Origin: Prevotella sp.
Lineage (GTDB): Bacteria > Bacteroidota > Bacteroidia > Bacteroidales > Bacteroidaceae
DNA length: 64,000 nt
Direction of reading: 5' to 3'
Assembly (NCBI GenBank): GCA_017651265.1
Contig: JAGCDO010000039.1
Span: 1 to 64,000, forward strand
Positions 43,789 through 58,011 of the stretch are shown piece by piece. Made by a program: the position numbers and the translations under genes. The stretch's first letter is position 1; each line of letters begins with the position of its first letter. The notes beneath the pieces were generated by a model, which had not been told where the DNA came from, made no database searches, and saw only the letters and a program-made list of their open reading frames with translations.

Positions 43789-46700
43789 TTAGTACGACAG
43801 TTTTACGCCAAATGTGAATGTGCGTGCCGATGGATAGGTGCCACGATCTACGTAACCAGAGTATTCAGGGTCGAAACCACTATAGTTGGTAATTGTAAGT
43901 AGATTCTGGGCTGAGGCATAGAGGTAAACTCCAAGCTTTGAACCATTCTGCAAACGTGGCTTGAATGAGTAACCCACCTGAATGTTCTTAAGGCGTAGGT
44001 AGCTGGCATCCTCAATGAAACGACTGTCGAGATAGCTGTTATACAGGTTGAGGGCATAGGCGCGAGGGATGGTAGTGTTAGCATTATTCTCAGTCCAACG
44101 ATTAGCTAATTTTGCTGATGCATTGTAGCTGGCATTGGGTGATTCGAGAGCCTGCTCTAACTGGTTGTAGAGTTTGTTTCCATAGCTTCCTTGGAAGTTG
44201 AAACTCAGATCCCAATTCTTGTAGCGCAACTGAGAGGCAAAACCATAAGTGAACTTTGGCTGCGCAGAACCAAGGATCACTCGGTCGTTTTCCTGATCAA
44301 CTGCACCATCACCATCCTGATCAACAAACTTGGCATCGCCATATTCTACATTGGTTTTATTCGAAGGAGCAGGCACTTTACTCAAATCATCACCTTTCTG
44401 TACTACACCGTCGAACACCCAACCATAGTAGGTGCCTAATGCTTCGCCTACACGGATGATGGTTTGGTTACCATTGATGATTTCGTTTTGCTGTGTTCCA
44501 AGACTCGTAACCTTATTCTTGTTATGAGCGATATTGGCTGAAGCGTTCCATGAGAGGTCTTTCTGCTGAATGAGTGTCGCGTTGATGGCAAACTCTACAC
44601 CATCGTTAGTGACGTTACCGATATTACTAAGCTGTGAAGAGAAACCTGTGGTCTGTTCAACAGGGATAGAAAGAAGCAGATCGGAAGTCTTCTTATGGTA
44701 ATAGTCGAACACAAAGCCGAGCTTACCTTTTAATACAGAAAGGTCAAAACCAAGGTCGTAGGATGTCGTTGTTTCCCACTTCAAGTCGTCATTGCCCAAT
44801 CCAGAACGGTAATAGGCCGTGTTCTTGGTTCCTCCACCCAGATAGTAATGAGTGGCAGCATAGGTTGAAAGGAATCGGTAGTCACCAATCTCCTGGTTAC
44901 CAACGGTACCGATGCTGGCACGTATTTTCAGGTCTTCTATCCATTTCTGACTTTTAAGCCAGCTCTCTTCATTCACATTCCACGAGAATCCGAGTGATGG
45001 GAACCATCCCCACTTCTTGTTCTTTGCAAATCGTGAAGAACCGTCAGCTCGCAGTGTTGCTGTAAGATGATAGCGGTCGAGTAGGGAGTAGTTGATACGT
45101 CCAATTCCAGAATAAAGAACTGATGTTACGAAATGGCTCTCAGGTGTAATCAACTGCGAACCAGCCTGGAGGGAGTGATAACCAAGATTCTCATTAGCAA
45201 AGTTAGCTGAAGCTGCTAAAACGTTCTCGCTCTTTTCCTGTTGGTAGGTGTATCCACCCAACACTTCGATCTCATGCGCCTTCCATTTCTTATTCCAGGT
45301 AAGTGTGGTTTCTACCTGATCACTTTCCCAACGCTTGCTACCGATAGTAGCATAGCCTTGCGTATTAAAACCTGCTGTTGAGGTAGAAGGACCAAAGAAG
45401 TTCTGACGGGTATTGATGATATTGGTAGATCCCTGTACACGCAGACGTAAACCAGATACGATTTCCCAAGAACCGAATATGGATACCAATACATTGTCCA
45501 CTTTTGTCTCTGCATCAACTTCGCTCAAATCAGCTATTGGATTGGGCGTTTGTCCATTGCGCACAAAGTCGCCGGCCTCAAATGGGTTTGCATAATTGTA
45601 GGTACCATCTGCATTATAGATGGGCACGGCTGGTGATGTGCGAAGAGCCTGTTCCAGAATGCCGCTAAAGCCGTTCGAGTAACTACCGAATGAGTAAGAA
45701 CCCTTTTGACTGCTCTTTGATATGTTGGATTTCAATCCTACTGTGATGTTCTTAATGATGTCGCGCTCGTAGTTGATACGTGCACCAAGGCGTGTAAAGT
45801 CTGTGCTGCGTATTACACCCTGTTGATCGGTGTAGTTGGCAGAAATCAGGAAACGTTCGTTATCAGAACCTCCATTAATCGATAACTGATGCTGCTGGGT
45901 GGTGGCTGAACGGAAGAGAGCATCTTGCCAGTCGGTACCCTTTCCCCATGACGAAACAACTGCCGGGGTAACTCCTGTTGCAGCTTTCTGTGCATCTGTT
46001 GCCAAATCGAGATACAATTCGCCCCATTGTTGAGCATCGAGCAAGTCGAGTGTCTTGCGCACATTGGCTACTCCAATGCTATAGCCATAGTCAACCTTAA
46101 TGCGTCCACGCTTACCATTCTTGGTGGTGACAATAATAACACCATTAGCACCGCGTGAACCGTAAATGGCTGATGCTGACACGTCTTTCAATATCTCAAT
46201 CGATTCGATGTCTGACGGGTTGATAGATGCAAGAGGGTTAAAGTTACTGTCGGCATAGGATACTCCTGTCTTGGTGGCACTATTGCTGTTGTATATCAGT
46301 ACGCCATCAATGACATATAGGGGCTCATTACCACCGTTGATAGAGTTACCACCACGGATACGGATATTGATGGATGCACCAGGCTGTCCTGATGATGAGG
46401 TGGCATCCAAACCGGCCACAGCACCTCCAAGGATATTGTCGAACGATGTAGAGGCCTGCAGCAGTTCTTCATTCTTTACTGTTGTTACAGAACCCGTAAG
46501 AGCCTTACGTTTCTGCACGCCGTAGCCTACTACCACAACCTCATCAATTCTGTTTGAGTTATCAATCAATGCGATCTCAACCGGCTCCTCGAAATCATAG
46601 ACATCCACATCGAGGGGACGATAGCCTACATATTCCACACGGAGGGTCAGCGGAGCCTCTACCTTGGTCTGAAGAGAGAAGTTACCGTCGATATCGGTTA

Positions 46701-46857
46701 CTACGCCCTGACCCTTTTCACTCTTGACGATGACAGATGCACCAATGAGCGATTCGCCAGTGCGAACATCAGAGATATGACCTGTGATCAGGTTCTGCGA
46801 GAAAGCCAACAGAGGGCTGATTGCAACGAAAGTTGCAATAAACAATCTTTTTACCAT
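43789..46857 (-). CDS. SusC-family TonB-linked outer-membrane transporter
   Basis: A 1022-residue SusC/RagA protein with signal peptide, N-terminal carboxypeptidase-like regulatory domain (GHISDVRTGESLIGASVIVK, about 25-95), plug domain with the TonB-box-like DEVVVVGYGVQKRKALTGSV (about 105-125) and ASAIYGSRGANGVIIVTTK, and a long barrel ending RTFTFGVKLSY. It imports the ligand captured by the SusD partner encoded 27 bp downstream. No anti-sigma/STN domain is present, so ECF control is not indicated. It is the second gene of the six-gene operon, 37 bp after the PstS-like gene. Ligand unknown. Confidence 0.95.
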   Translation of the reverse strand: MVKRLFIATFVAISPLLAFSQNLITGHISDVRTGESLIGASVIVKSEKGQGVVTDIDGNFSLQTKVEAPLTLRVEYVGYRPLDVDVYDFEEPVEIALIDNSNRIDEVVVVGYGVQKRKALTGSVTTVKNEELLQASTSFDNILGGAVAGLDATSSSGQPGASINIRIRGGNSINGGNEPLYVIDGVLIYNSNSATKTGVSYADSNFNPLASINPSDIESIEILKDVSASAIYGSRGANGVIIVTTKNGKRGRIKVDYGYSIGVANVRKTLDLLDAQQWGELYLDLATDAQKAATGVTPAVVSSWGKGTDWQDALFRSATTQQHQLSINGGSDNERFLISANYTDQQGVIRSTDFTRLGARINYERDIIKNITVGLKSNISKSSQKGSYSFGSYSNGFSGILEQALRTSPAVPIYNADGTYNYANPFEAGDFVRNGQTPNPIADLSEVDAETKVDNVLVSIFGSWEIVSGLRLRVQGSTNIINTRQNFFGPSTSTAGFNTQGYATIGSKRWESDQVETTLTWNKKWKAHEIEVLGGYTYQQEKSENVLAASANFANENLGYHSLQAGSQLITPESHFVTSVLYSGIGRINYSLLDRYHLTATLRADGSSRFAKNKKWGWFPSLGFSWNVNEESWLKSQKWIEDLKIRASIGTVGNQEIGDYRFLSTYAATHYYLGGGTKNTAYYRSGLGNDDLKWETTTSYDLGFDLSVLKGKLGFVFDYYHKKTSDLLLSIPVEQTTGFSSQLSNIGNVTNDGVEFAINATLIQQKDLSWNASANIAHNKNKVTSLGTQQNEIINGNQTIIRVGEALGTYYGWVFDGVVQKGDDLSKVPAPSNKTNVEYGDAKFVDQDGDGAVDQENDRVILGSAQPKFTYGFASQLRYKNWDLSFNFQGSYGNKLYNQLEQALESPNASYNASAKLANRWTENNANTTIPRAYALNLYNSYLDSRFIEDASYLRLKNIQVGYSFKPRLQNGSKLGVYLYASAQNLLTITNYSGFDPEYSGYVDRGTYPSARTFTFGVKLSY

Positions 46858-46894: not shown

Positions 46895-47827
46895 CTAATT
46901 CTGTGCGGTAAGTGAGTTCTTAATCTTATCAATCTCAATCTGTGCTACCTTGTTGTCCAGATTCAGCAGTCCGTATTCATGGTTATACTTCGTACCATTG
47001 GTAAGCACCCACTGCAGGAACTGGTTCAGGGCCTCGTCACCCTCGTTGTAGCTCACTCCAATCTTCTCGATAGCCACTTCCGACACCCTGTCGTTTTCCA
47101 GGATGGCAATCAGTTCATCCAGTGTGGCCTTATCAGAGAAGTTCTCTTCGAGGTTCTTCTTTACGTCGATACCGATGATGGACAGATCGCTCTTTACATG
47201 TCGGCTCTGCAAGTCGAAGATATTGGGAAGGGCGTTGAACGATACACCGAGCGGATCCTTTGCCAAGGCAGTGTTCAGGAAGAGGTCATCTCCAGAGATG
47301 CGCTTGCCGCGGAAGTTACTGCTCTCCTCACCGAAGTTATGAGCGAAAGATGAGGCTACTGATGTAGCGTTGCTACCACTGTAAATAACGAGTTGTTCAA
47401 ACTGCTTGATTTTCTTTACGTCCTCGTCGAATTCGTCATCGAGGAAGAAAAGTTGCTTTAGCTTCTTCGAGTTCAGGTGCTTGCCTTCCAGCACTTTGGC
47501 AGCCTCACTACCGCTGGCTGTGATAGGCAGCACGGCGAACTCTCCAAAATAAACAATATGGCTAAAGTCTTTTGCATTACTCTCTTGATTGTCAAAAACG
47601 ATATTCAGGTCGATGCTACCCTGATTCTGATTACCTTTGGCGATCTGGAACTCTACGCCAGGTTGTGTTTTTGCATATTCTGTGATCCACTTCTCTACCA
47701 GCGGGCGGGCAAAACGTGGAGCTTTCACGTAGCGCACACTGCTCGTGTTGGTAGAATTACCCTCAGCCCAAATATGACTGATATTGATACTCAATAATAC
47801 TGCTATTGCCAATGCGATTCTTTTCAT
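46895..47827 (-). CDS. PstS-like periplasmic substrate-binding protein
   Basis: A 310-residue exported protein with signal peptide MKRIALAIAVLLSINISHIWA. It has the type II periplasmic binding protein pattern of PstS-like proteins: an N-terminal lobe, EFAVLPITASGSEAAKVLEGK near the hinge (resembling the P-loop used for phosphate), LVIYSGSNATSVASSFAH and a C-terminal QFLQWVLTNG helix as in PstS. No ABC permease is encoded nearby; instead a SusCD pair follows, so it may act as a periplasmic acceptor for the TonB-imported ligand. It is the first gene of the operon. A 59-codon upstream ORF with five Cys codons overlaps its start. Confidence 0.75.
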   Translation of the reverse strand: MKRIALAIAVLLSINISHIWAEGNSTNTSSVRYVKAPRFARPLVEKWITEYAKTQPGVEFQIAKGNQNQGSIDLNIVFDNQESNAKDFSHIVYFGEFAVLPITASGSEAAKVLEGKHLNSKKLKQLFFLDDEFDEDVKKIKQFEQLVIYSGSNATSVASSFAHNFGEESSNFRGKRISGDDLFLNTALAKDPLGVSFNALPNIFDLQSRHVKSDLSIIGIDVKKNLEENFSDKATLDELIAILENDRVSEVAIEKIGVSYNEGDEALNQFLQWVLTNGTKYNHEYGLLNLDNKVAQIEIDKIKNSLTAQN

Positions 47828-48123: not shown

Positions 48124-48127
48124 GGAA

Positions 48128-48158
48128 TGATAATTTTCAATTGTCAATTATCAATTAT
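48128..48158. repeat. CAATTAT heptamer array
   Basis: Imperfect CAATTGT/CAATTAT units between the terminator and the JAMM peptidase stop codon. Confidence 0.7.
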
Positions 48159-48559
48159 TATAAGTGTACTTCCTTATCTACCACCTCTCCATTCAGAATC
48201 TTGAAGGAGTTCAGTTTCGGTTCTCCGTCAAGTAGTGAGAGGATGGCGTAGCGGATGGTAGGGTCGTTAGCCAGGCGCAGGTCTTCTTGTGAAGGCCGTG
48301 ATGGTGAGGCTGGATGACTGTGCCAGTTGGCGAGGATCTTCAGACCCTTGCTCCGTGCGTATCGCAATGCAGCGAACTGGTCCTTTGGCGCAAAAGAGAA
48401 ATGTTCCGAAGAGTGGTCGATATTCTCCATCCAGTAGTTCTCCGTTACGATGTCGCCCTCTTCCGTGCTGGTGCCCAGTAGGTAGCCGCATGATTCATTC
48501 GGCGCATCCTTCTTTGCCTGGTCTATCAGTTCTTCTATAATATGCTGTGGTATAATCAT
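48158..48559 (-). CDS. JAMM/MPN+ metallopeptidase (Mec/HcyD/QbsD-like)
   Basis: A 133-residue cytoplasmic zinc peptidase with the full JAMM set: E22 (in APNESCGYLLG), H80-S-H82 and D93 in the NWHSHPASPSRPSQED motif. Prokaryotic relatives next to sulfur carrier genes either cleave a cysteine or homocysteine adduct from the carrier (Mec) or remove residues blocking its C-terminal Gly-Gly (QbsD, HcyD). It is the third gene of the carrier/MoeB/JAMM operon, and the carrier here has five residues after its last glycine, so the unmasking role fits well. Catalytic residues are intact. Confidence 0.92.
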   Translation of the reverse strand: MIIPQHIIEELIDQAKKDAPNESCGYLLGTSTEEGDIVTENYWMENIDHSSEHFSFAPKDQFAALRYARSKGLKILANWHSHPASPSRPSQEDLRLANDPTIRYAILSLLDGEPKLNSFKILNGEVVDKEVHL

Positions 48560-48585: not shown

Positions 48586-49392
48586 TCAATGTTTCAAGTC
48601 ACAAGCCGCCTGTTCGTAATCTATCAGGTGGTCGATGGTGGGGTTCGAACCGCAGATAGCGCACGAGTCGCGATGCTTCACCGGTACCGTACGGAACTGC
48701 ATGGTCTTGGCATCGAATGTCAGCAGACGGTTGGTCAGCAGCTCACCCACACCGGTAAAATACTTCAGAGTCTCGGCAGCCTGAATCGTACCTAACATTC
48801 CTGCGATGGCTCCCAGCACACCAGCCTGACTACAGGTTGGCACCGCTCCTACGGGAGGCGGCTCCTTAAACATGCAACGGTAGCAGGCAGTACCGGGAAG
48901 ATGTGTAAAGGTCTGTCCGTTGAAGCGCAGGATTCCTCCATGCGAGAACGCCTTTCCTGCCATCACGCAAGCATCGTTGATGAGGAACTTCACGGGGAAG
49001 TTGTCGGTACCGTCCACCACGAAGTCGTATTCCTTGATGATATCCAGCGCATTCGATGAGTCGAGGAACTCATAGTAGGTATCTACCTTCACATCGGGGT
49101 TGATGGCCTTGATCTTCTCTTCGGCACTCTTCACTTTCGGAATGCCGACATCCTTTGTGAAATGGATCACCTGTCGCTGCAGGTTACTCAGATCCACCAC
49201 ATCTGCATCTACAATACCGATGCGCCCGATGCCTGCTGCTGCTAAGTAGAGACTCACGGGAGCTCCCAAGCCGCCAGCACCCACCACGAGCACACGCGCG
49301 TTCATTATCTTCTCTTGTCCTTCAACACCCACATCCTGTAACAGGATATGTCGTGAGTACCGTTGTATCTGTTCTTCAGTAAAATCAATCAT
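48586..49392 (-). CDS. MoeB/ThiF/HesA-family adenylyltransferase
   Basis: A 268-residue E1-like enzyme that adenylates the C-terminal glycine of a ubiquitin-fold sulfur carrier. It has RYSRHILLQDVG, the nucleotide loop GAGGLG (38-43), the D-N-L-Q-R-Q segment and two zinc-type CxxC pairs (CYRC and CAIC). ATG 49392 (MIDFTEEQ) is the normal MoeB N-terminus; the frame also has a TTG at 49401 inside the heptamer repeat. It lies between the carrier and JAMM genes on the minus strand. It lacks a C-terminal rhodanese domain, so sulfur must come from another donor such as the desulfurase/TusA/DsrE set encoded divergently. Confidence 0.93.
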   Translation of the reverse strand: MIDFTEEQIQRYSRHILLQDVGVEGQEKIMNARVLVVGAGGLGAPVSLYLAAAGIGRIGIVDADVVDLSNLQRQVIHFTKDVGIPKVKSAEEKIKAINPDVKVDTYYEFLDSSNALDIIKEYDFVVDGTDNFPVKFLINDACVMAGKAFSHGGILRFNGQTFTHLPGTACYRCMFKEPPPVGAVPTCSQAGVLGAIAGMLGTIQAAETLKYFTGVGELLTNRLLTFDAKTMQFRTVPVKHRDSCAICGSNPTIDHLIDYEQAACDLKH

Positions 49393-49460
49393 AATTGTCA
49401 ATTATCAATTATCAATCATCAATTGTCAATTATCAATCATCAATTGTCAATTATCAATTA
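49386..49460. repeat. CAATTAT/CAATCAT heptamer array between carrier and moeB-like genes
   Basis: About ten 7-bp units (CAATTAT, CAATCAT, CAATTGT) fill the 54-bp gap and run into both genes: they encode the last residues and stop codon of the sulfur carrier and sit immediately upstream of the adenylyltransferase ATG. Confidence 0.88.
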
Positions 49461-49668
49461 CACTACCTCCTCCCATGAAGTAAAGGAAGTCCACCTTGTC
49501 GCCATCTTTCAGCTGGATCGTCTCCCAGTCTTCGCGCTCAGCAAACTCCTCGTTAACCTGTACGCTGACCATGTCAGGCTGCTGTACGTCACTTTGTTTG
49601 ATCAGTTCACTCACGTTGAGCGGCAGGCTCACTTCCTGCGCATCTCCGTTTACATAAATCTTTGCCAT
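49447..49668 (-). CDS. ThiS/MoaD-like sulfur carrier with masked Gly-Gly
   Basis: A 73-residue beta-grasp protein (MAKIYVNGDAQEVSLPLNVS, then LKDGDKVDFLYFMGGG). ThiS/MoaD/CysO proteins end in Gly-Gly, which is adenylated and converted to a thiocarboxylate. Here G66-G67-G68 is followed by SVIDN, so the end is blocked until cut. The last codons and stop come from the adjoining CAATTAT heptamer array, suggesting repeat DNA provided the extension. It is first in an operon with the MoeB-like enzyme and a JAMM peptidase that could remove the extension. HcyS of Wolinella (methionine synthesis) is the closest known parallel. Confidence 0.88.
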   Translation of the reverse strand: MAKIYVNGDAQEVSLPLNVSELIKQSDVQQPDMVSVQVNEEFAEREDWETIQLKDGDKVDFLYFMGGGSVIDN

Positions 49669-49703
49669 AACTCTGTCGGTTTAATAATGAATAAATTACG
49701 GTG

Positions 49704-49734
49704 CAAAGGTACGACCATTCCGTCAGCGCTGCAA
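49704..49734 (-). promoter_or_regulatory. promoter of the carrier/MoeB/JAMM operon
   Basis: Minus-strand -7 TACCTTTG (49711-49704) and TTG (49734-49732) within GGGATTG, spaced 20 bp. Confidence 0.75.
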
Positions 49735-49796: not shown

Positions 49797-49827
49797 TTGC
49801 CCACATCATGGAAACCCCATATCTTTG
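49797..49827 (+). promoter_or_regulatory. promoter of the DsrE/TusA/encapsulin/desulfurase operon
   Basis: TTG (49797-49799) within GGCGATTG and -7 TATCTTTG (49820-49827), spaced 20 bp; 25 bp before the start codon. Confidence 0.75.
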
Positions 49828-49852
49828 CACCCAGATATTTAAACCGACAATT

Positions 49853-50332
49853 ATGGCAGAAAACAAGAAACTGAGCATCATCGCCTTCAGTGGCGATTTT
49901 GACAAGCTCACGGCTGTATTTACATTAGGTACAGGCGCTGCAGCAGTAGGGTACGAAGTAAACATCTTCTTCACTTTCTGGGGACTGGACGCTATCAAGC
50001 GCAAGCAGGGACGTTCGTTCACCGGTGGTAATTGGCTCACGAAGATTTTCGGTTTCATGATGGGTGGTCTGAAGGTGACACCAACCAGTCGCTTCAACTT
50101 CCTGGGTGCAGGACCGAAGATTTTCCGCTATCTCATGCGTAAGAATAATGTGGCTACGTTGGAGGAACTCGTAGAGGCCGCAAAGGCATTAGGTATTAAC
50201 CTGTATGCCTGTGAGATGGCAATGCACGTGTTAGGTCTGAAAAAGGAAGACTTTATTCCTGAGGTGAAGGATGTTCTCGGCGTAGCAACGTTCCTACAGT
50301 TAAGTGAGGGTGGACAAACCTTATTTATTTAA
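49853..50332 (+). CDS. DsrE-family sulfur-transfer protein
   Basis: A 159-residue DsrE/DsrF-like protein. LSIIAFSGDFDKLTAVFTLG and GYEVNIFFTFWGLDAI match the fold; LYACEMAMHVLG places a conserved cysteine at C120, the persulfide-carrying position of this family. A basic, hydrophobic middle (KIFGFMMGGLKV) is typical of the larger DsrE2-like proteins. ATG 49853 is set by the promoter at 49797-49827. It is the first gene of a five-gene operon with TusA, encapsulin shell, cysteine desulfurase and a PLP enzyme, so it probably relays sulfane sulfur from the encapsulated desulfurase. Confidence 0.88.
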   Translation: MAENKKLSIIAFSGDFDKLTAVFTLGTGAAAVGYEVNIFFTFWGLDAIKRKQGRSFTGGNWLTKIFGFMMGGLKVTPTSRFNFLGAGPKIFRYLMRKNNVATLEELVEAAKALGINLYACEMAMHVLGLKKEDFIPEVKDVLGVATFLQLSEGGQTLFI

Positions 50333-50359: not shown

Positions 50360-50584
50360 ATGGCAACAAAAGTATTGGACATCACGAAAGAGCATTGTCC
50401 AATGACCTTCGTGAAGACAAAGATTGAGCTCTCGAAACTCAGCGAGGGCGATATTCTGGAAGTGCTGCTCGCAGAAGGCGAGCCTCTCGACAACGTGCCC
50501 CGTAACGCCAAAGAGCAGGGTTACAACGTACTGAGTGTGGAACACGTTGAAGGCACCACACACAAAGTGACTATAAAGAAATAA
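50360..50584 (+). CDS. TusA/SirA-like sulfur carrier protein
   Basis: A 74-residue TusA-family protein with the CP motif (C13-P14 in KEHCPMTFVKTK), the cysteine that carries persulfide, and the two-layer alpha/beta fold pattern (LSEGDILEVLLAEGE, GYNVLSVEHVEG). It accepts sulfur from a cysteine desulfurase and passes it to DsrE-type proteins or other acceptors. It lies 27 bp after the DsrE-like gene and 97 bp before the encapsulin gene. The 97-bp gap has repeated TTAACTTCTTT motifs but no clear promoter or terminator. Confidence 0.93.
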   Translation: MATKVLDITKEHCPMTFVKTKIELSKLSEGDILEVLLAEGEPLDNVPRNAKEQGYNVLSVEHVEGTTHKVTIKK

Positions 50585-50681: not shown

Positions 50682-52121
50682 ATGGCAGATTCTAATTTAC
50701 AGCGCAGTGTGACCACTGCTACCGCCAGGAAATTGGCGACCACTACCAAGACCGCCCCGCAGATGGGCAGTATCACCCCACGTTTACTCCTGAAGCTGTT
50801 GCCCTGGGTGCAGGTGTCAGGCGGCACCTTCCGTGTGAACCGCACCAAGGTGGAACTTCGTAAGAACGACCGTCTGCCCATCCAGTATGTGGATGGTGTA
50901 CCCACATTTACGGCCAAGGCCCTGAAAGCTATCCCCCTGTTCTCCGAGTTCGACGATGAGATCGTCAACCGTCTGGTGAACTCTTTCGAGGCGAAGGAGG
51001 TCGATGTGGATAAACTCTTCGTGGAGGAGGGCAAGGACAAGCAGCGCTTCTTCATCGTTGCTTCTGGTCAGGCAGAGGTGATCAGCAAAGGTTCTCATGG
51101 CGAGGAACTACGGATAGCGCTCTTAGGCGACGGTGAGTATTTCGGTGAGGCCGATGTGCTCGACGAGCAGGAATCTACCGTGTCGGTACGTGCCGTCACC
51201 CCCACTGTGTTCCTCGGACTGAAGCTAAAGGAGTTACTCAAGATCATCAAGGAGGTGCCCGACTTCCGTGATTCCTTCAACAAAGCTGTTGATAAGCAGC
51301 TGCGTCTGAAGGCTTCGGTGAACGACAACGGTGAGAAGCACATCGACCTGGTGAGCGGTCATGAGGAGGATAATATCATTCCCGAGACCTATATCGACTA
51401 CGAGGAGAATCCGAGGGAGTACAGTCTGAACACCCTGCAGACGGTGGTACGTGTACACACCCGTGTTTCTGATCTCTATAACAATCCTTACAGTCAGTTG
51501 GAAGAGCAGCTGCGCCTCTCTATCGAGAGCATCAAGGAGCGTCAGGAGTGGGAGCTCATCAACAACAAGAAGTTCGGTCTGCTGGCAGCAGTGAATCCTG
51601 CCTATCGTATCTCAGCACGTTACGGCTCACCCACACCCGATGATCTCGACGAACTGTTGAGTCTGGTATGGAAGGAACCTGCCTTCTTCATCGCCCATCC
51701 GCGTGCCATTGCTGCCTTTGAACGTGAGTGCACATGGCGTGGTGTACCCCCTGTTACGACCGATCTCTACGGTACGAAAGTCATTTTGTGGCGCGGCGTA
51801 CCCCTGATTCCTTCTGATAAGGTAGAGGTTGAAGGTCAGTATCTCACAGGTCGTGGGGTAGGAACCACCAAGATCATCCTTGTGCGTACCGGCGAGCAGA
51901 ACCAGGGAGTCATCGGTCTGCACCAGAGCGGCATCCCGGGTGAGATAGCACCATCACTCAGTGCCCGTCTGATGGGACTCGACAAGTTCGGTGTGGCAGC
52001 CTATCTGCTCACGAAGTACTTCTCGTTGGCAGCCCTTACCGACGACGCTATCGCCGTACTGGAGAACGTTGAGGTAGGATACTATCACGACTATCAGCAT
52101 CGTAACGCTGTAGAGAAATAA
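50682..52121 (+). CDS. family 2 encapsulin shell protein with inserted cNMP-binding-like domain
   Basis: A 479-residue HK97-fold shell protein. Residues 1-53 (ARKLATTTKTAPQMGSITPR, LLPWVQVSGGTFRVNR) and 237-479 (YIDYEENPREYSL, HTRVSDLYNNPY, SIKERQEWELINN, PTPDDLDELLSLVWKEPAFF) follow SrpI-type family 2 encapsulins. Between them, about 60-230 is an insertion with a cyclic-nucleotide-binding-like fold (IPLFSEFDDEIVNRLV at 84-99, GEYFGEADV at 151-159). Its phosphate cassette lacks the usual Arg (DEQESTVSVRA), so ligand binding is doubtful. By layout this is family 2B, yet the next gene is a cysteine desulfurase with a cargo-like extension. It should assemble into a protein nanocompartment. Confidence 0.93.
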   Translation: MADSNLQRSVTTATARKLATTTKTAPQMGSITPRLLLKLLPWVQVSGGTFRVNRTKVELRKNDRLPIQYVDGVPTFTAKALKAIPLFSEFDDEIVNRLVNSFEAKEVDVDKLFVEEGKDKQRFFIVASGQAEVISKGSHGEELRIALLGDGEYFGEADVLDEQESTVSVRAVTPTVFLGLKLKELLKIIKEVPDFRDSFNKAVDKQLRLKASVNDNGEKHIDLVSGHEEDNIIPETYIDYEENPREYSLNTLQTVVRVHTRVSDLYNNPYSQLEEQLRLSIESIKERQEWELINNKKFGLLAAVNPAYRISARYGSPTPDDLDELLSLVWKEPAFFIAHPRAIAAFERECTWRGVPPVTTDLYGTKVILWRGVPLIPSDKVEVEGQYLTGRGVGTTKIILVRTGEQNQGVIGLHQSGIPGEIAPSLSARLMGLDKFGVAAYLLTKYFSLAALTDDAIAVLENVEVGYYHDYQHRNAVEK

Positions 52122-52130
52122 AAAAAGACT

Positions 52131-52160
52131 CCCCCCAACCCCTCCCTGTGAGGGAGGGGA
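52131..52160. other. GC-rich hairpin between shell and cargo genes
   Basis: CCCCTCCCT (52139-52147) and AGGGAGGGG (52151-52159) form a 9-bp stem with a 3-nt loop in the 56-bp gap. No U run follows, so it is not a standard terminator on the plus strand. It resembles the GC-rich dispersed repeats elsewhere and may affect the ratio of shell to cargo expression. Confidence 0.7.
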
Positions 52161-52177
52161 GTAAATATACGTAGTTT

Positions 52178-53785
52178 ATGATAGACATACAACAAACATT
52201 TATACCCGACCCGGGATTAGGCTATACCCAGGCACCATCCTTCGACGGTGGTGCACTGGAGCAGCTGAGGGACCTGGCCAAGAAATATTGTCCAGAGGAA
52301 TACCAGAGGGAGCGACAGGTCATCCTGCCTGACGACGAACTGCATCTGGAGGAATTGGAGGCAGGCTTCAAGGCACTGCTCAGCGGAGGGTCGCCCTTCC
52401 CTGATCTACCTTATATTGGAGATGGGCTGCCACAATACGATGCTGCGGCACCTCATCCTGAGTCGGAAACACCTCACACGCCATCGGGTAATGTAGGAGA
52501 CGGCTTCGGCATCGGCATCCCTGAAACGCAGAAGCTGCAGAAAATGCATTACGAGGAGGTGGATACCTTGAACTCGGAGCAGATCAAGAAAGACTTCCCC
52601 GTGCTCAACCAGAAGGTGAACGGTCACGACCTCGTGTGGCTCGACAACGGTGCTACGACACAGAAGCCTGTGCAGGTTATCGACAAGATTTCGGATTACT
52701 ACAAAACGTATAATTCGAACATCCACCGCGGTGCCCACACGCTGGCTGCCCGCGCCACCGATGCCTACGAAGAGGCTCGCGAAAAGGTACAGCGTTTCAT
52801 CAATGCTGCTACCAGTGAGGAGATTATCTTCGTTCGTGGTACCACCGAGGGCATTAACCTCGTGGCGCAGACCTACGGTCGTCAGTTCCTTACACCTGGC
52901 GATGAGGTCATCGTCTCCGAGTTGGATCACCACGCCAACATCGTGCCCTGGCAACAGGTGTGTCACGAGAAAGGTTGTACCTTGAAGGCCATCCCCACCG
53001 ATAAGAATGGCGATCTGGTCTTGTCTGAGTTTGAGCGTCTTATCACGCCCCGAACACGTTTTGTCAGCGTAGGACATGTGAACAATACCTTCGGTACCAT
53101 CAACGATGTGAAGCGTATCATCGATATCGCCCACTCGCACCATATCCCCGTACTGATTGATGGAGCACAGTCTATTGCCCATACACCTGTTGACGTACAG
53201 CAGCTCGGTGCCGACTTCTTCGTCTTTAGCGGACACAAGATCTACGGTCCTAACGGCATCGGGGTTGTTTACGGTCGTAAGGATATTCTCGACAAGATGC
53301 AGCCCTGGCAGGGTGGGGGTAATATGATCAAGGATGTAACCATCGAACGTACGGAATACAATGTGCCGCCGGCTCGTTTCGAGGCTGGTACGCCCAATGT
53401 GGCCGATGCCATCGGTCTGGGTGCCGCTTTGGATTATGTGAGTCATCTCGGTATCCGGAATATCGAGCACCATGAGCACCAGCTAACGGAGTATGCCCGA
53501 GAGCAGCTTGCCCAGATCAAGGGTCTTACGCTCATTGGTAATCCCACGAACCGCGTGTCGGTGGTGAGCTTCGTCCTCGATGGTATTCCCGTGCCTGAGA
53601 CAGGAACACTGCTCGACAAGGAGGGTATCGCCGTGCGTGCCGGTCATCACTGTGCCCAGCCTGCCCTTCGTGCCCTCGGCTACGAGATGAGCGTCCGTCC
53701 TACCTTCGCTCTGTACAATACCCGAGAGGATGTGGATCGACTGGTGATAGCAATCAGGAAGATCATAGGTGATAATAAACGATGA
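52178..53785 (+). CDS. cysteine desulfurase, encapsulin cargo
   Basis: A 535-residue protein. Residues about 133-535 are a SufS-like type II cysteine desulfurase: LVWLDNGATTQKP, FFVFSGHKIYGPNG with PLP lysine K354, and RAGHHCAQP with catalytic C492. It releases sulfur from L-cysteine as a persulfide. Residues 1-130 are an added N-terminal region, Pro/Gly/Asp-rich and largely disordered (GGSPFPDLPYIGDGLPQYD, HPESETPHTPSGN), of the kind that targets desulfurases into family 2 encapsulins. It directly follows the shell gene and precedes the PLP enzyme gene by 10 bp. Catalytic residues are intact. Confidence 0.95.
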   Translation: MIDIQQTFIPDPGLGYTQAPSFDGGALEQLRDLAKKYCPEEYQRERQVILPDDELHLEELEAGFKALLSGGSPFPDLPYIGDGLPQYDAAAPHPESETPHTPSGNVGDGFGIGIPETQKLQKMHYEEVDTLNSEQIKKDFPVLNQKVNGHDLVWLDNGATTQKPVQVIDKISDYYKTYNSNIHRGAHTLAARATDAYEEAREKVQRFINAATSEEIIFVRGTTEGINLVAQTYGRQFLTPGDEVIVSELDHHANIVPWQQVCHEKGCTLKAIPTDKNGDLVLSEFERLITPRTRFVSVGHVNNTFGTINDVKRIIDIAHSHHIPVLIDGAQSIAHTPVDVQQLGADFFVFSGHKIYGPNGIGVVYGRKDILDKMQPWQGGGNMIKDVTIERTEYNVPPARFEAGTPNVADAIGLGAALDYVSHLGIRNIEHHEHQLTEYAREQLAQIKGLTLIGNPTNRVSVVSFVLDGIPVPETGTLLDKEGIAVRAGHHCAQPALRALGYEMSVRPTFALYNTREDVDRLVIAIRKIIGDNKR

Positions 53786-53795
53786 ATGTCCATTC

Positions 53796-55028
53796 ATGAA
53801 ATACGAAACAAAAGTATTAAACACAAAATACCAGAAGCCTGACGCCTATGGGGCACTGTCGATGCCTGTCTATTATACGGCAGCATTCGAGTTCCCCTCG
53901 GCCAAGGCAATGAGTGATGCCTTCTGTGGACGCACCATGGCGCCGTCGTATGCCCGCATCGCGAACCCCACGACAACCTATCTGGAAGACCGTGTGCGAC
54001 AGATTACTGGGGCTGCGAGTGTGACAGCGCTGAACACGGGCATGGCGGCTATTGCCTATGCCTTGACGGCTGTGAGTGGGGCAGGACTGAACATCGTGGC
54101 CTCGAAGCACCTTTTTGGTAATAGTGTTTCTCTGATTCGCGACACGTTGGGCAGCTTTGGCGTTGAACCGCGGTTTGCCGACTTCACAAAGCCGGAGGAG
54201 GTGGAGGCACAGATTGATGACAAGACCGCCGCGCTATTTTTCGAGATCATCACCAATCCGCAGTTGTTCGTGGCTGATATTCGTAAGCTGTCGGATATTG
54301 CCCATCAGGCAGGTGTGCCGTTGATCGCTGATACGACCATCGTACCGTTCCCTGCTTTTCATGCCAGCGATTTCGGCGTGGATATTGAGGTGGTGTCGAG
54401 CACGAAGTACATCTCAGGTGGTGGTACAGGCTTAGGCGGTTTGCTCATCGATTATGGTAGGTTCGACTGGTCGCAGCATCCGTCACCTGCCTTGCTGGCT
54501 CGTACCAAGAAGGTGGGGAAGAAACTGGCGTTTACCGCCCGAGTGAAAACAGAACTCATTACCAACCTTGGTAGCTTGATGACACCACAGGTGGCATATA
54601 TGGAGACGCTCGGACTTGACACGCTCGATATCCGTTTCCGTCGTCAGGCAGAAACGACGCTGTGGCTGGCTCGACAGTGTCAGGAAATCCCTGAGATCAA
54701 ACGGGTGAACTACACCGGACTGGAGGATAATCCTTTCTATGATCTGTCGAAGGAGCAATTCGGTCTGTTACCAGGGGCTGTGTTCACCATCGACCTCGCT
54801 TCGAAGGATGATGCCTTCACGTTCATCGATAAACTGAAGATTATCCGTCGCGCCACGAATCTCTTCGATCGTAAGTCACTGGCCATTCATCCCGCTTCGA
54901 CCATCTTCGGTCTTTTCACTGCTGAACAATGCGCCGAGATGTCTGTACCAGATACCACGGTACGTCTGAGCATCGGTCTGGAGGATGGCGAAGATTTGCT
55001 GGAGGATATCAAGCAGGCATTAGTATAA
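53796..55028 (+). CDS. PLP-dependent transsulfuration-family enzyme
   Basis: A 410-residue Cys/Met-metabolism PLP enzyme (cystathionine gamma-synthase/O-acylhomoserine sulfhydrylase family). YARIANPTTTYLEDRV, the PLP phosphate site ALNTGMAAIAYAL, and SSTKYISGGG with PLP lysine K204 are clear. It is only distantly similar to the MetY-type protein encoded at 56722-58011, so the two probably differ in substrate. It begins 10 bp after the encapsulated desulfurase gene as the last gene of the sulfur operon, which suggests it uses sulfur delivered by that system. The reaction could be homocysteine synthesis or a lyase reaction. A 22-bp palindromic array follows. Confidence 0.88.
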   Translation: MKYETKVLNTKYQKPDAYGALSMPVYYTAAFEFPSAKAMSDAFCGRTMAPSYARIANPTTTYLEDRVRQITGAASVTALNTGMAAIAYALTAVSGAGLNIVASKHLFGNSVSLIRDTLGSFGVEPRFADFTKPEEVEAQIDDKTAALFFEIITNPQLFVADIRKLSDIAHQAGVPLIADTTIVPFPAFHASDFGVDIEVVSSTKYISGGGTGLGGLLIDYGRFDWSQHPSPALLARTKKVGKKLAFTARVKTELITNLGSLMTPQVAYMETLGLDTLDIRFRRQAETTLWLARQCQEIPEIKRVNYTGLEDNPFYDLSKEQFGLLPGAVFTIDLASKDDAFTFIDKLKIIRRATNLFDRKSLAIHPASTIFGLFTAEQCAEMSVPDTTVRLSIGLEDGEDLLEDIKQALV

Positions 55029-55153: not shown

Positions 55154-55183
55154 TTGCTGTTTTCTAAATTATTCGTACCTTTG
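55154..55183 (+). promoter_or_regulatory. promoter of the SDR gene (TTG-N19-TACCTTTG)
   Basis: TTG at 55154-55156 and TACCTTTG at 55176-55183, 60 bp before the ATG at 55243. Confidence 0.7.
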
Positions 55184-55242: not shown

Positions 55243-55953
55243 ATGAAAGAAAAGATTGTTTTAGTAACTGGTGCCAACAAAGGTATCGGTTTTGGAATTG
55301 CCAAATACCTCGGAAAGAGTGGTTGGCAGGTAATTATCGGTGCACGCGACGGACAGCGAGCCGAGAAAGCTATAGGTGAGCTGAAGTCAGCTGGTGTTGA
55401 CGTGTTGGGTTGGGTGAATATCGAGTTGCGCGACCTTGACAATATCGAGAAGGCCGCCAAGGAAATCAATGAGAAATACCCAAAGCTGTCACTGTTGGTG
55501 AACAATGCGGGTATTCCCGGTGATATGAGTGTGGACAGTCTGCACACAGAGATCAGCGATATCAAGGAGACGCTCAACGTGAACTTCATTGGTACCTTTG
55601 CCCTTACCAAGGTGCTGATGCCGTTGCTTACCAAGAACGAAGGTCGCATTGTCAATGTGACGGTTCCCTCAGAGATCAGTCCTTACTGGCATCCGTTGGC
55701 TTATGTTGCCAGTAAGGCAGCGCAGAATGCGATGGTGGGTGTGATGGCTATCGAGTTCCAGCAGAGCAACACCCCGCTGGAGATCTTCACCGTACATCCC
55801 GGACCCACAACCACCGATTTGAACGGTAATATGGCACTGCCCGGTTTCCACGATATAGAAACCGTAGGACAGAAGATGGCCGAGCTCATCAACGATGGTC
55901 AGAACCACCAGGGCGAGTTCATTGAACTCTATCCGATTGTAAAAGAGGATTAG
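55243..55953 (+). CDS. short-chain dehydrogenase/reductase
   Basis: A 236-residue classical SDR. TGANKGIGFGIA (about 8-19) is the NAD(P) glycine motif, LLVNNAGIPG the NNAG motif, and YVASKAAQNA contains the YxxxK catalytic pair. PGPTTTDLNG matches the region following the active site. Sequence resembles carbonyl reductase-like SDRs; the substrate is unknown. ATG 55243 is chosen because it begins the Rossmann fold; an upstream GTG at 55201 only adds a poor leader. It has its own promoter and is convergent with a LuxR-type regulator gene, their ends overlapping by 4 nt. Confidence 0.9.
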   Translation: MKEKIVLVTGANKGIGFGIAKYLGKSGWQVIIGARDGQRAEKAIGELKSAGVDVLGWVNIELRDLDNIEKAAKEINEKYPKLSLLVNNAGIPGDMSVDSLHTEISDIKETLNVNFIGTFALTKVLMPLLTKNEGRIVNVTVPSEISPYWHPLAYVASKAAQNAMVGVMAIEFQQSNTPLEIFTVHPGPTTTDLNGNMALPGFHDIETVGQKMAELINDGQNHQGEFIELYPIVKED

Positions 55954-56591
55954 ATATAAAACTCTGAAGGATCGATCAACCCCGCACGAAGTGCATACTT
56001 TACCGCTTCGTGCGCTGTGTTTATACCCAGTTTGCGGAAGATGTTCTTTCGATGGGTGGTAATGGTGTGGATACTTGAGAAACGCTCAGCAGCAATCTCT
56101 TTGGTAGTCTTACCCTGCGCAATCGCCTTCACGATCTCCGTCTCGGTCTGCGTGAGCAGGTCGGGCTTTTCCTCTTCTTGTTGCTGGGTAATGATAGCCT
56201 CGAGGGCACGCTGACTGAGGTAGCGGGTGTGGTTCCCCACTGCTTGAAGCGCTTCGCGGATCTCACTCATAGGACCGTCTTTGAAGGCAACGCTGAACTG
56301 ATGGGACGAGTAAACCACACGACGGATGAATTGGGGAGTCAGTTCATCACTGATGAGAAGCCAGTCAGACAGGTTAAACCGCTCGGCAATAATCAGAAGC
56401 TGATCCTCGTCAGCGAAGTCGAACAACGTATAGTCGAGTAGTACCGCAGCACTCTCATGCTCCCTGAGCAGGTCAACAAGTCCTGACCTGTCAAAAGCAC
56501 GATAGATCACGTTCTCTTCATCTTTCCGAAGAAGACTCTCCAGTGCGAATCGCGTCAGTTCCTGGTTGTCGGCGATGATATACTTTCTCAT
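55950..56591 (-). CDS. LuxR/NarL-type response-regulator-like protein
   Basis: A 213-residue protein with an N-terminal receiver-like domain (MRKYIIADNQELTRFALESL, AAVLLDYTLFDFADE where D-Y-T is the likely phospho-acceptor region) and a C-terminal LuxR helix-turn-helix (LLTQTETEIVKAIAQGKTTK, about 145-205). ATG 56591 is chosen at the start of the receiver fold. No histidine kinase gene is adjacent. It resembles the regulator at 16680-17276 in size and layout. It is encoded between the sulfur operon and metY, so it is a candidate, but unproven, regulator of sulfur genes. A TACCTTCG box lies upstream. Confidence 0.87.
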   Translation of the reverse strand: MRKYIIADNQELTRFALESLLRKDEENVIYRAFDRSGLVDLLREHESAAVLLDYTLFDFADEDQLLIIAERFNLSDWLLISDELTPQFIRRVVYSSHQFSVAFKDGPMSEIREALQAVGNHTRYLSQRALEAIITQQQEEEKPDLLTQTETEIVKAIAQGKTTKEIAAERFSSIHTITTHRKNIFRKLGINTAHEAVKYALRAGLIDPSEFYI

Positions 56592-56608
56592 ATGGGACGT
56601 TTTGGGTG

Positions 56609-56616
56609 CGAAGGTA
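56609..56616 (-). promoter_or_regulatory. -7-like element TACCTTCG for the LuxR-type regulator
   Basis: Minus-strand TACCTTCGCAC, one mismatch from TAnnTTTG, 18 bp before the start codon. Confidence 0.5.
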
Positions 56617-56679
56617 CGAAAATTCAGGTAATCTGCCAAATCCAATGCGAACTTTGACAGATTACCCTTGTTATTCTTA

Positions 56680-56728
56680 ATTTTTCAACTTCAATTCTTA
56701 AATTCTTGAATTCTTCAATTCTTAAATC
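56680..56728. repeat. AATTCTTC/AAATTCTT octamer-type array after metY
   Basis: Five units of about 8 bp (CAATTCTT, AAATTCTT, GAATTCTT) start right at the metY stop codon. A shorter similar run lies at 48561-48590 before the JAMM gene. Confidence 0.7.
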
Positions 56729-58011
56729 TTCTCCAGCGCCTGTGCCAGGTCGTCGATGATATCATCAATGTGCTCTGTACCGATACTCAGACGGATGGTT
56801 GACGGTGTGATATGCTGCTCGGCCAGTTCCTCGGGAGAGAGCTGTGAGTGAGTGGTGGTGTAGGGGTGGATCACCAGACTCTTCACGTCGGCCACGTTAG
56901 CCAGCAGTGAGAAGATCTGCAGTGCATCGATGAACTTCCATGCCTCTTCTTGACCGCCCTTGATCTCGAAGGTGAAGATGCTACCGGCACCGTTGGGGAA
57001 GTATTTCTTGTAAAGCTGATGGTCGCGATGACTCTCCAGAGCGGGGTGGTTCACCTTAGCCACCTTGGGGTGTTTGGCAAGGAAATCCACAACCTTCAGT
57101 GCGTTCTCCACATGACGCTCCACACGCAGGCTCAGTGTCTCGACACCCTGCAAGAGGATGAAGGCGTTGAAAGGAGAGATGGCAGCACCGGTATCACGCA
57201 GGATGACGGCACGGATACGGGTAACGTAAGCGGCAGCACCTACTGCGTCGGCAAACACGATACCATGGTACGATGGATCGGGCTTTGCCAAGGTGGGGAA
57301 CTTATCGGGATTAGCCTTCCAGTCGAACTTACCACCGTCAACGATGACACCACCCAGTGAGGAGCCATGACCGCCCAGGAACTTTGTGGCAGAGTGAACC
57401 ACGATGTCTGCTCCATGCTCCAACGGTCTAATTAAATAAGGTGTACCGAACGTGTTGTCCACGATAAACGGAATACCGTGCTTGTGAGCCACTGCTGCTA
57501 CGCCTTCGAGGTCGAGCACGTCAGAGTTCGGATTACCGAAAGTCTCTGCATACACCACCTTCGTGTTAGGTTTGATGGCAGCCTCGAGTGCTTCGAGGTC
57601 GTTGACATTGATGATGGTATTGCTGATACCCTGCGTACTCAGCGTATGGGTAATCAGGTTGTAGGAACCGCCATAGAGGTTGTCGGCTGCAACGATATGA
57701 TCACCAGCCTGTACAATGTTCTGCAGGGCATAGGTGATGGCAGCTGCACCAGAGGCAACAGCCAGACCGGCCACGCCACCCTCAAGGGCAGCCACGCGAT
57801 CCTCGAACACTCCCTGGGTAGAGTTGGTCAGACGACCGTAGATATTACCTGCATCACGAAGTCCGAAACGGTCGGCTGCATGCTGGGAGTTATGGAATAC
57901 ATAACTGGTGGTTTGGTAAATGGGCACCGCACGGGCATCGGTAGCGGGGTCAGCCTGCTCTTGGCCTACATGGAGTTGCAGTGTCTCAAAACGATAATTC
58001 TTCTTACTCAT
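56722..58011 (-). CDS. metY: O-acetylhomoserine aminocarboxypropyltransferase (sulfhydrylase)
   Basis: A 429-residue PLP enzyme making homocysteine from O-acetylhomoserine and sulfide, or from a thiocarboxylated carrier protein in some bacteria. RFETLQLHVGQEQADPATDA is a typical MetY N-terminus; YGRLTNSTQGVFEDRVAALE and SATKFLGGHGSSLGG (PLP lysine) are diagnostic. Length fits MetY rather than the shorter MetB/MetC. In Wolinella, MetY works with the HcyS/HcyD/HcyF carrier set, whose counterparts are encoded 7-9 kb away here. It has its own TACCTTTG promoter with TTG 20 bp upstream. Confidence 0.95.
   Translation of the reverse strand: MSKKNYRFETLQLHVGQEQADPATDARAVPIYQTTSYVFHNSQHAADRFGLRDAGNIYGRLTNSTQGVFEDRVAALEGGVAGLAVASGAAAITYALQNIVQAGDHIVAADNLYGGSYNLITHTLSTQGISNTIINVNDLEALEAAIKPNTKVVYAETFGNPNSDVLDLEGVAAVAHKHGIPFIVDNTFGTPYLIRPLEHGADIVVHSATKFLGGHGSSLGGVIVDGGKFDWKANPDKFPTLAKPDPSYHGIVFADAVGAAAYVTRIRAVILRDTGAAISPFNAFILLQGVETLSLRVERHVENALKVVDFLAKHPKVAKVNHPALESHRDHQLYKKYFPNGAGSIFTFEIKGGQEEAWKFIDALQIFSLLANVADVKSLVIHPYTTTHSQLSPEELAEQHITPSTIRLSIGTEHIDDIIDDLAQALEKI

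Follow-up and report, generated by a model that had tools for sequence, protein, structure and literature searches.

We describe a sulfur-transfer locus in a 64,000-nucleotide stretch of a Prevotella sp. genome (GenBank assembly GCA_017651265.1, contig JAGCDO010000039.1, positions 1 to 64,000; hereafter the window), in which a family 2B encapsulin shell and a SufS-type cysteine desulfurase (CD) are accompanied by six further genes. We propose, with a probability of about 0.6, that this locus joins a family 2B sulfur encapsulin to a pathway that makes homocysteine by way of a protein thiocarboxylate. The pairing of a 2B shell with a CD is itself known; what appears to be new is a desulfurase encapsulin within a conserved eight-gene set of predicted thiocarboxylate function. 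A first-pass annotation of the window had recognized the shell and the CD as a pair and had overlooked the six neighbouring sulfur-transfer genes. The genes, with two promoter-like motifs, are:

48158..48559, minus strand: JAMM/JAB metalloprotease, HcyD/Mec+-like (PF14464, 87.9 bits)
48586..49392, minus strand: E1-like adenylyltransferase, ThiF/MoeB/HcyF-like (PF00899, 270 bits)
49447..49668, minus strand: ThiS-like sulfur carrier with residues beyond GG(G), ending ..FLYFMGGGSVIDN (PF02597, TIGR01683)
49702..49711, minus strand: presumed Bacteroidales -7-like promoter motif TAnnTTTGCA, before carrier-E1-JAB (motif scan)
49820..49829, plus strand: presumed Bacteroidales -7-like promoter motif TAnnTTTGCA, before DsrE2-TusA-shell-CD-MetYL (motif scan)
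49853..50332, plus strand: stand-alone DsrE2-type sulfur-transfer protein (PF13686, 138.9 bits)
50360..50584, plus strand: TusA-like sulfurtransferase with CPMT motif (PF01206, 71.8 bits)
50682..52121, plus strand: family 2B encapsulin shell, predicted, with a domain like those binding cyclic nucleotide monophosphates (cNMP) inserted at about residues 57-222 (NF041163, 561.5 bits; PDB matches)
52178..53785, plus strand: SufS-type CD, putative cargo, with an N-terminal extension of about 135 amino acids (PF00266, TIGR01979)
53796..55028, plus strand: O-acetylhomoserine sulfhydrylase-like enzyme, MetYL (best PDB match 3ri6)

In the proposed pathway, the N-terminal extension would pack the CD into the 2B shell, and the enzyme would take up cysteine sulfur as a persulfide. 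Sulfane sulfur would then exit the shell and be picked up by TusA and DsrE2. The JAMM protease would trim the carrier to GG, E1 would adenylate it, and the sulfur held by TusA/DsrE2 would be converted to a carrier thiocarboxylate. MetYL would join this thiocarboxylate to O-acetylhomoserine, after which the protease would release homocysteine, so that cysteine sulfur would reach methionine without free sulfide. Cargo loading, every transfer step and the product are what we infer from the locus.

The gene order is compatible with two transcription units. Carrier, E1 and JAMM protease are divergent to the shell operon, in which DsrE2 and TusA precede the shell on the same strand and MetYL follows the CD. 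TAnnTTTGCA, which we take to be a Bacteroidales -7-like promoter motif, occurs 17 times in the window against 1.8 copies expected by chance. Both copies listed above stand between the divergent units, and since the next plus-strand copy lies only at 55176, the arrangement fits a single five-gene transcript DsrE2-TusA-shell-CD-MetYL. Four copies of an AT-rich 33-nucleotide intergenic repeat surround the carrier-E1-JAB genes (48126-48158, 49387-49454).

A 2B shell with a desulfurase as putative cargo

The product of 50682-52121 was confirmed, as far as a gene can tell, as a predicted family 2B encapsulin shell. Its open reading frame (ORF) of 479 residues scores 561.5 bits with the NCBIfam model NF041163 'family 2B encapsulin shell' (cut-off 400), and PF19307 (SrpI-like) and PF00027 (cNMP_binding, residues 113-190) are both above their cut-offs. 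This agrees with the first-pass description of an HK97-type family 2 shell carrying a cNMP-like insertion. The HK97 part (residues 218-471) also exceeds the cut-off of the 2A model NF041162 (423.8 bits, cut-off 380), which indicates that the inserted domain is what makes this shell 2B; the earlier assignment had been made dependent on matches to HK97/encapsulin profiles, and these were obtained for both shell types. A 2A shell is defined by the absence of a cNMP-like domain, and here the domain is present. Aligned to SrpI (6x8m) and other 2A shells, the window shell splits into two pieces, about 2-56 and 223-475, which places the insertion, in the E-loop, at roughly 57-222, close to the residues 60-230 initially suggested. 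Three PDB chains of 470-477 amino acids (9bje, 9bhu and 9bix) match it over residues 7-466; deposited under regulator-like names, they are taken here to be solved 2B shells.

The phosphate-cassette region of the inserted domain reads ESTVSVRAV. The column of the canonical phosphate-binding arginine, a position that we assume from the CAP motif and placed by eye, holds an invariant serine in all 21 aligned Bacteroidota 2B shells. The window shell's domain is probably cNMP-blind, as had been suspected from the missing arginine, and PMC12407261 agrees in stating that cyclic nucleotides are not bound by the cNMP-like domains of 2B shells. A gate-like role may be considered for the domain. In a tree of 26 hand-picked shells, the Bacteroidota 2B shells paired with a CD form a single clade. 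Within this set the window's HK97 part shows 53-59% identity to 2A shells and 50-57% to other 2B shells, values so similar that gain and loss of the inserted domain are not told apart by the shell tree.

The CD comprises 535 amino acids, with the Aminotran_5 domain at 153-522. The SufS model begins only at residue 135, in line with the N-terminal extension of about 130 residues noted at first pass. On the 2A cargo model NF041166 the protein reaches 718 bits, below the cut-off of 800, and is covered over residues 120-529 only. The extension was measurable, with start codons picked by rule, in 89 of 95 relatives whose 3' end is complete, where it spans 60-236 residues, the shortest coming from a 366-residue ORF; the other six lack the landmark motif and have total lengths of 483-557. 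Conserved blocks lie close to its N-terminal end and where it joins the enzyme, and the extension is kept in homologues that keep the shell, a point on which the initial proposal of a cargo had hinged. Of 99 CD relatives, 93 carry the active-site motif of SufS, R[AT]GHHC. By analogy with the system described in PMC8049743, the CD may be packed into the shell by way of this extension. Between the shell and CD genes lies a hairpin (52122-52177, z -2.8) that possibly tunes the shell:cargo ratio. It was rejected as a conserved element, since only four of 274 loci share its exact sequence, and two of those four are copies of the window region.

The first-pass statement that desulfurase-loaded family 2 shells lack the cNMP-like domain proved outdated, and the 2B-CD pairing was likewise dropped as a candidate novelty, having been published in 2021: that survey gives operons with a CD for 1281 2A and 199 2B shells, the latter in nine phyla (Andreas & Giessen 2021, PMC8346489). 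PMC12407261 also lists CDs among 2B cargo types, and on a Kitasatospora plasmid an annotated 2B shell adjoins a SufS-type CD.

Conservation and co-occurrence of the gene set

To describe the surroundings of related shells, we used the best 80 of 531 stretches that a genome scan confirmed as encoding shell relatives of any kind. These loci are close relatives, with shells 92-96% identical to the window shell, and are titled Prevotella, Prevotellaceae, Bacteroidaceae, Bacteroidales, Segatella, Xylanibacter or uncultured bacterium, many being from ruminants; the Bacteroidales kinship and the sulfur role assigned at first pass were judged right. Many loci are incomplete because contig ends cut them. 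The full set of carrier, E1, JAMM protease, DsrE2, TusA, shell, CD and MetYL is complete in 48 of the 80, being divergent as in the window in 32 and co-directional in 16, the latter as a single run MetYL-DsrE2-TusA-shell-CD-carrier-E1-JAB. Forty of the loci reach 6 kb or more in both directions; every one of these has DsrE2, TusA and CD, 39 have MetYL, 36 have E1 and JAB, and 35 have the carrier. All eight genes also occur, in further arrangements, at loci whose shells are 77-80% identical (L115, L182-L185, L195). When 12 genomes with no E1 found near the shell were searched whole, 10 had an E1 of at least 70% identity further off, some on the shell's own contig; at L093 the E1 lies at the locus edge, and L108 is a 4-kb contig. 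The association of a desulfurase encapsulin with a thiocarboxylate cassette is thus well supported as a conserved gene association.

Sequence motifs are retained as well. The JAMM motif HxHPx6SxxD was present in 74/74 protease relatives extracted, CSQA in 76/77 E1 relatives, CPMT in 98/98 extracted TusA relatives and Y[AV]CEM in 96/96 DsrE2 relatives.

Co-occurrence was examined in 151 genomes from the window's own family; 19 of them have a shell and 132 do not. An E1 ortholog (at least 75% identity) was present in all 19 shell genomes and in 2 of the 132 others. Stand-alone DsrE2 (at least 79% identity) was present in 19/19 versus 0/132, the next DsrE2 matches being at most 45% identical and located inside ORFs of about 700-900 residues. 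MetYL (at least 54% identity) also occurs in all 19 shell genomes; its presence in at least 13 of the 132 shell-free genomes, a lower bound that includes three partial copies, rules it out as specific to the module. PF04204, the homoserine acyltransferase family, is found in 19/19 shell genomes.

Outside this family the shell is rare. Only 7 of 295 genomes in an order-level sample had it, and the 62 matches among 395 genomes of a phylum-level sample consist of the window's genome, six genomes with 2A-type matches and 55 of one family (f136). Of 20 f136 loci, 16 have a CD beside the 2B shell and the remaining four are truncated at contig ends; no JAB, DsrE2 or TusA match was found in any of the 20. 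In L167, the one locus whose genes were inspected individually, we take two genes to be cysE and cysK.

A locus on the Aliarcobacter cibarius plasmid pACIB (L233, 1854-12368), typed as mobilizable, carries a 2A shell and a CD beside a MoaD/ThiS carrier ending in GGI, an E1, an M67 protease and a cysteine synthase. Rhodanese, cysE and cysK are also present, with insertion sequence elements between some of the genes. The cassette is not annotated in six other 2A plasmid loci, where annotation is incomplete; these have a serine acetyltransferase in five of six, a rhodanese in two and CysK in one.

These distributions bear on the possibility that the shell merely stores sulfur, the CD filling it with elemental sulfur or polysulfide while the neighbouring genes draw on the store or share its regulon. 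That DsrE2 and E1 accompany the shell across genomes points to directed transfer and not only to storage, and the six 2A plasmid loci, by contrast, show no cassette by annotation. Storage is the function held for 2A desulfurase encapsulins, and PMC12407261 describes encapsulated desulfurases as 'involved in sulfur storage'; the conserved active-site motif of the CD would suit it too, and a store is compatible with the thiocarboxylate pathway as a buffered version of it. We regard storage as an unlikely explanation of the locus.

Carrier, acceptor enzyme and sulfur source

Although the carrier scores above the cut-off of the ThiS model (60.9 bits against 37.45), as encoded it does not end at GG, its C-terminus being GGGSVIDN. 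None of 80 complete carrier ORFs, drawn from 102 sources with some duplicates, ends at GG; all have FMGGG followed by a variable tail. The tail was found in 21/21 cassette-bearing genomes of the same family (the 19 with and 2 without a shell), whereas the second ThiS paralogues read, eight from shell genomes and one from G719 with two more left out, end exactly at CGG in 9/9 cases. An ordinary ThiS was therefore rejected as the identity of the carrier. A second ThiS was found in 10 of the 19 shell genomes and none was seen in nine, including the window's.

Carrier, E1 and JAB could alternatively act in CysO/Mec+-like cysteine synthesis, thiamine or molybdopterin synthesis, tRNA thiolation or protein conjugation, with a shared sulfur regulon explaining their proximity to the shell. 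The ThiS match of the carrier and the nine shell genomes without a second ThiS are in favour of such a role, as are the Aliarcobacter locus, in which the cassette is paired with a cysteine synthase, and the shell-free locus L224, in which it lies between genes read as cysE and cysK. On the other hand, ten shell genomes do have a second ThiS, and the eight that were read end in CGG, unlike the cassette carriers. The partner in Prevotella-type loci is MetYL and not a cysteine synthase, and a route from cysteine back to cysteine would gain the cell nothing. Another product of the carrier genes appears quite improbable.

For MetYL the best PDB match is 3ri6 (348 bits; next best 257), which we take to be the Wolinella succinogenes enzyme. 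In a tree of 28 hand-picked MetYLs, the module-linked copies fall in separate clades, one per layout, with stand-alone copies interspersed. That MetYLs of two separate clades are tied to the module, one per layout, argues against the view that MetYL uses free sulfide from the shell, with the carrier, TusA and DsrE2 supplying sulfur to acceptors other than MetYL. This view can draw on the shell-free genomes with MetYL, none of which has an E1 ortholog, and we consider it very improbable.

With regard to the sulfur source, 17 of the 19 shell genomes gave no match to the sulfite/nitrite reductase domain NIR_SIR, G704 and G729 being the exceptions; the window's genome is 94% complete, and some other shell genomes only 81-90%. 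The window's genome is among the 17, so it does not show the sulfite reductase expected as sulfur source in a Wolinella-type pathway. In shell-free G709 the cassette adjoins what we interpret as cysN/D/H genes and a TusA-fused sulfite reductase. In G064, which has a shell, MetYL, E1 and JAB are found further along the contig with an 805-residue ORF similar to the G709 reductase-TusA. We read reductase-TusA and CD-TusA-DsrE2 as alternative sulfur suppliers.

Several observations weigh against the thiocarboxylate pathway to homocysteine. No case in which TusA receives its sulfur from a SufS-type CD turned up, and the two-fold pores of a related 2B shell, given as 14 by 60 angstrom in PMC12407261, would be tight for TusA. 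MetYL in shell-free genomes that have no E1 implies that this enzyme need not use a thiocarboxylate, and with no second ThiS in nine shell genomes the carrier could also serve thiamine. Because the shell genomes are related, the co-occurrence counts are not independent events, and Fisher p-values, which take no account of this, were set aside as evidence. No E1 match was obtained in the L077 genome and only a 58% paralogue in that of L108. The cassette of G704 and G729 lies about 11 kb from a sulfite reductase and on another contig than the shell, and shell-free G719, having the cassette and no sulfite-reductase domain, fits neither supplier. Finally, a canonical second MetY in the window (56722-58011, minus strand; TIGR01326, 639.6 bits) offers a possible free-sulfide route.

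Other neighbouring genes may also be related to sulfur. A 310-residue protein that begins with a signal-like stretch and matches no Pfam family (46895-47827, minus strand; a relative at L231:4952-5863 is weakly PstS-like) adjoins a TonB-dependent receptor (43789-46857, minus strand). Both were matched in 20 of the 80 relative loci and might import a sulfur compound. A LuxR-type regulator (55950-56645, minus strand), matched in 34 of the 80 and also, with 31-35% identity, in 2B shell loci of f136, is a candidate sulfur regulator.

Comparison with known systems

The locus names a candidate acceptor chain for sulfur encapsulins with a measurable end product, methionine, and its type recurs widely in Prevotella-type bacteria. 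If the proposed pathway is correct, it would provide a concrete context for the cNMP-like domain of 2B shells. A more general and tentative idea is that 2A and 2B desulfurase encapsulins might be sulfur-loading stations for protein-thiocarboxylate amino-acid synthesis that arose independently in Bacteroidales (homocysteine) and Campylobacterota (cysteine), with DsrE2-TusA as a dedicated exit relay and the external cNMP-blind domain as its gate or dock. In literature searches, which left subscription papers and preprints largely outside, we found nothing linking encapsulins to thiocarboxylates, sulfur carriers or methionine biosynthesis, and, by title and start of abstract, nothing on this subject for encapsulins in Prevotella.

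A protein-thiocarboxylate route to methionine was reportedly described for Wolinella succinogenes by Krishnamoorthy and Begley in 2011, with sulfur from sulfite reductase, a carrier with one or more residues past GG, an E1, a JAMM protease and the 3ri6-type MetY. The window resembles that system in having the genes for carrier, E1, JAMM protease and MetY together, and in a carrier that is extended past GG and would need the protease. It differs in its supplier of sulfur, which would be a CD, putatively encapsulated, working with DsrE2 and TusA in place of sulfite reductase. Mycobacteria synthesize cysteine by the CysO-Mec+-CysM system, which follows the same carrier, E1 and JAMM logic as the window, with another acceptor enzyme and product.

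The 2B-CD systems of Andreas & Giessen (2021, PMC8346489) share with the window a cNMP-inserted shell beside a SufS-type CD whose N-terminal extension is long. Serine O-acetyltransferase and rhodanese are the most enriched neighbours there, whereas carrier, E1, JAMM protease, DsrE2, TusA and MetYL are the neighbours here; a word search of the main text of that paper gave no mention of TusA, ThiF or MoaD. The SrpI/CyD 2A encapsulin of Synechococcus elongatus (PMC8049743) is similar to the window system in its HK97 part (56% identical), its CD cargo and the N-terminal targeting domain of that cargo. Unlike the window system, it has no cNMP-like domain, and its neighbours are CysK, EpsC and rhodanese.

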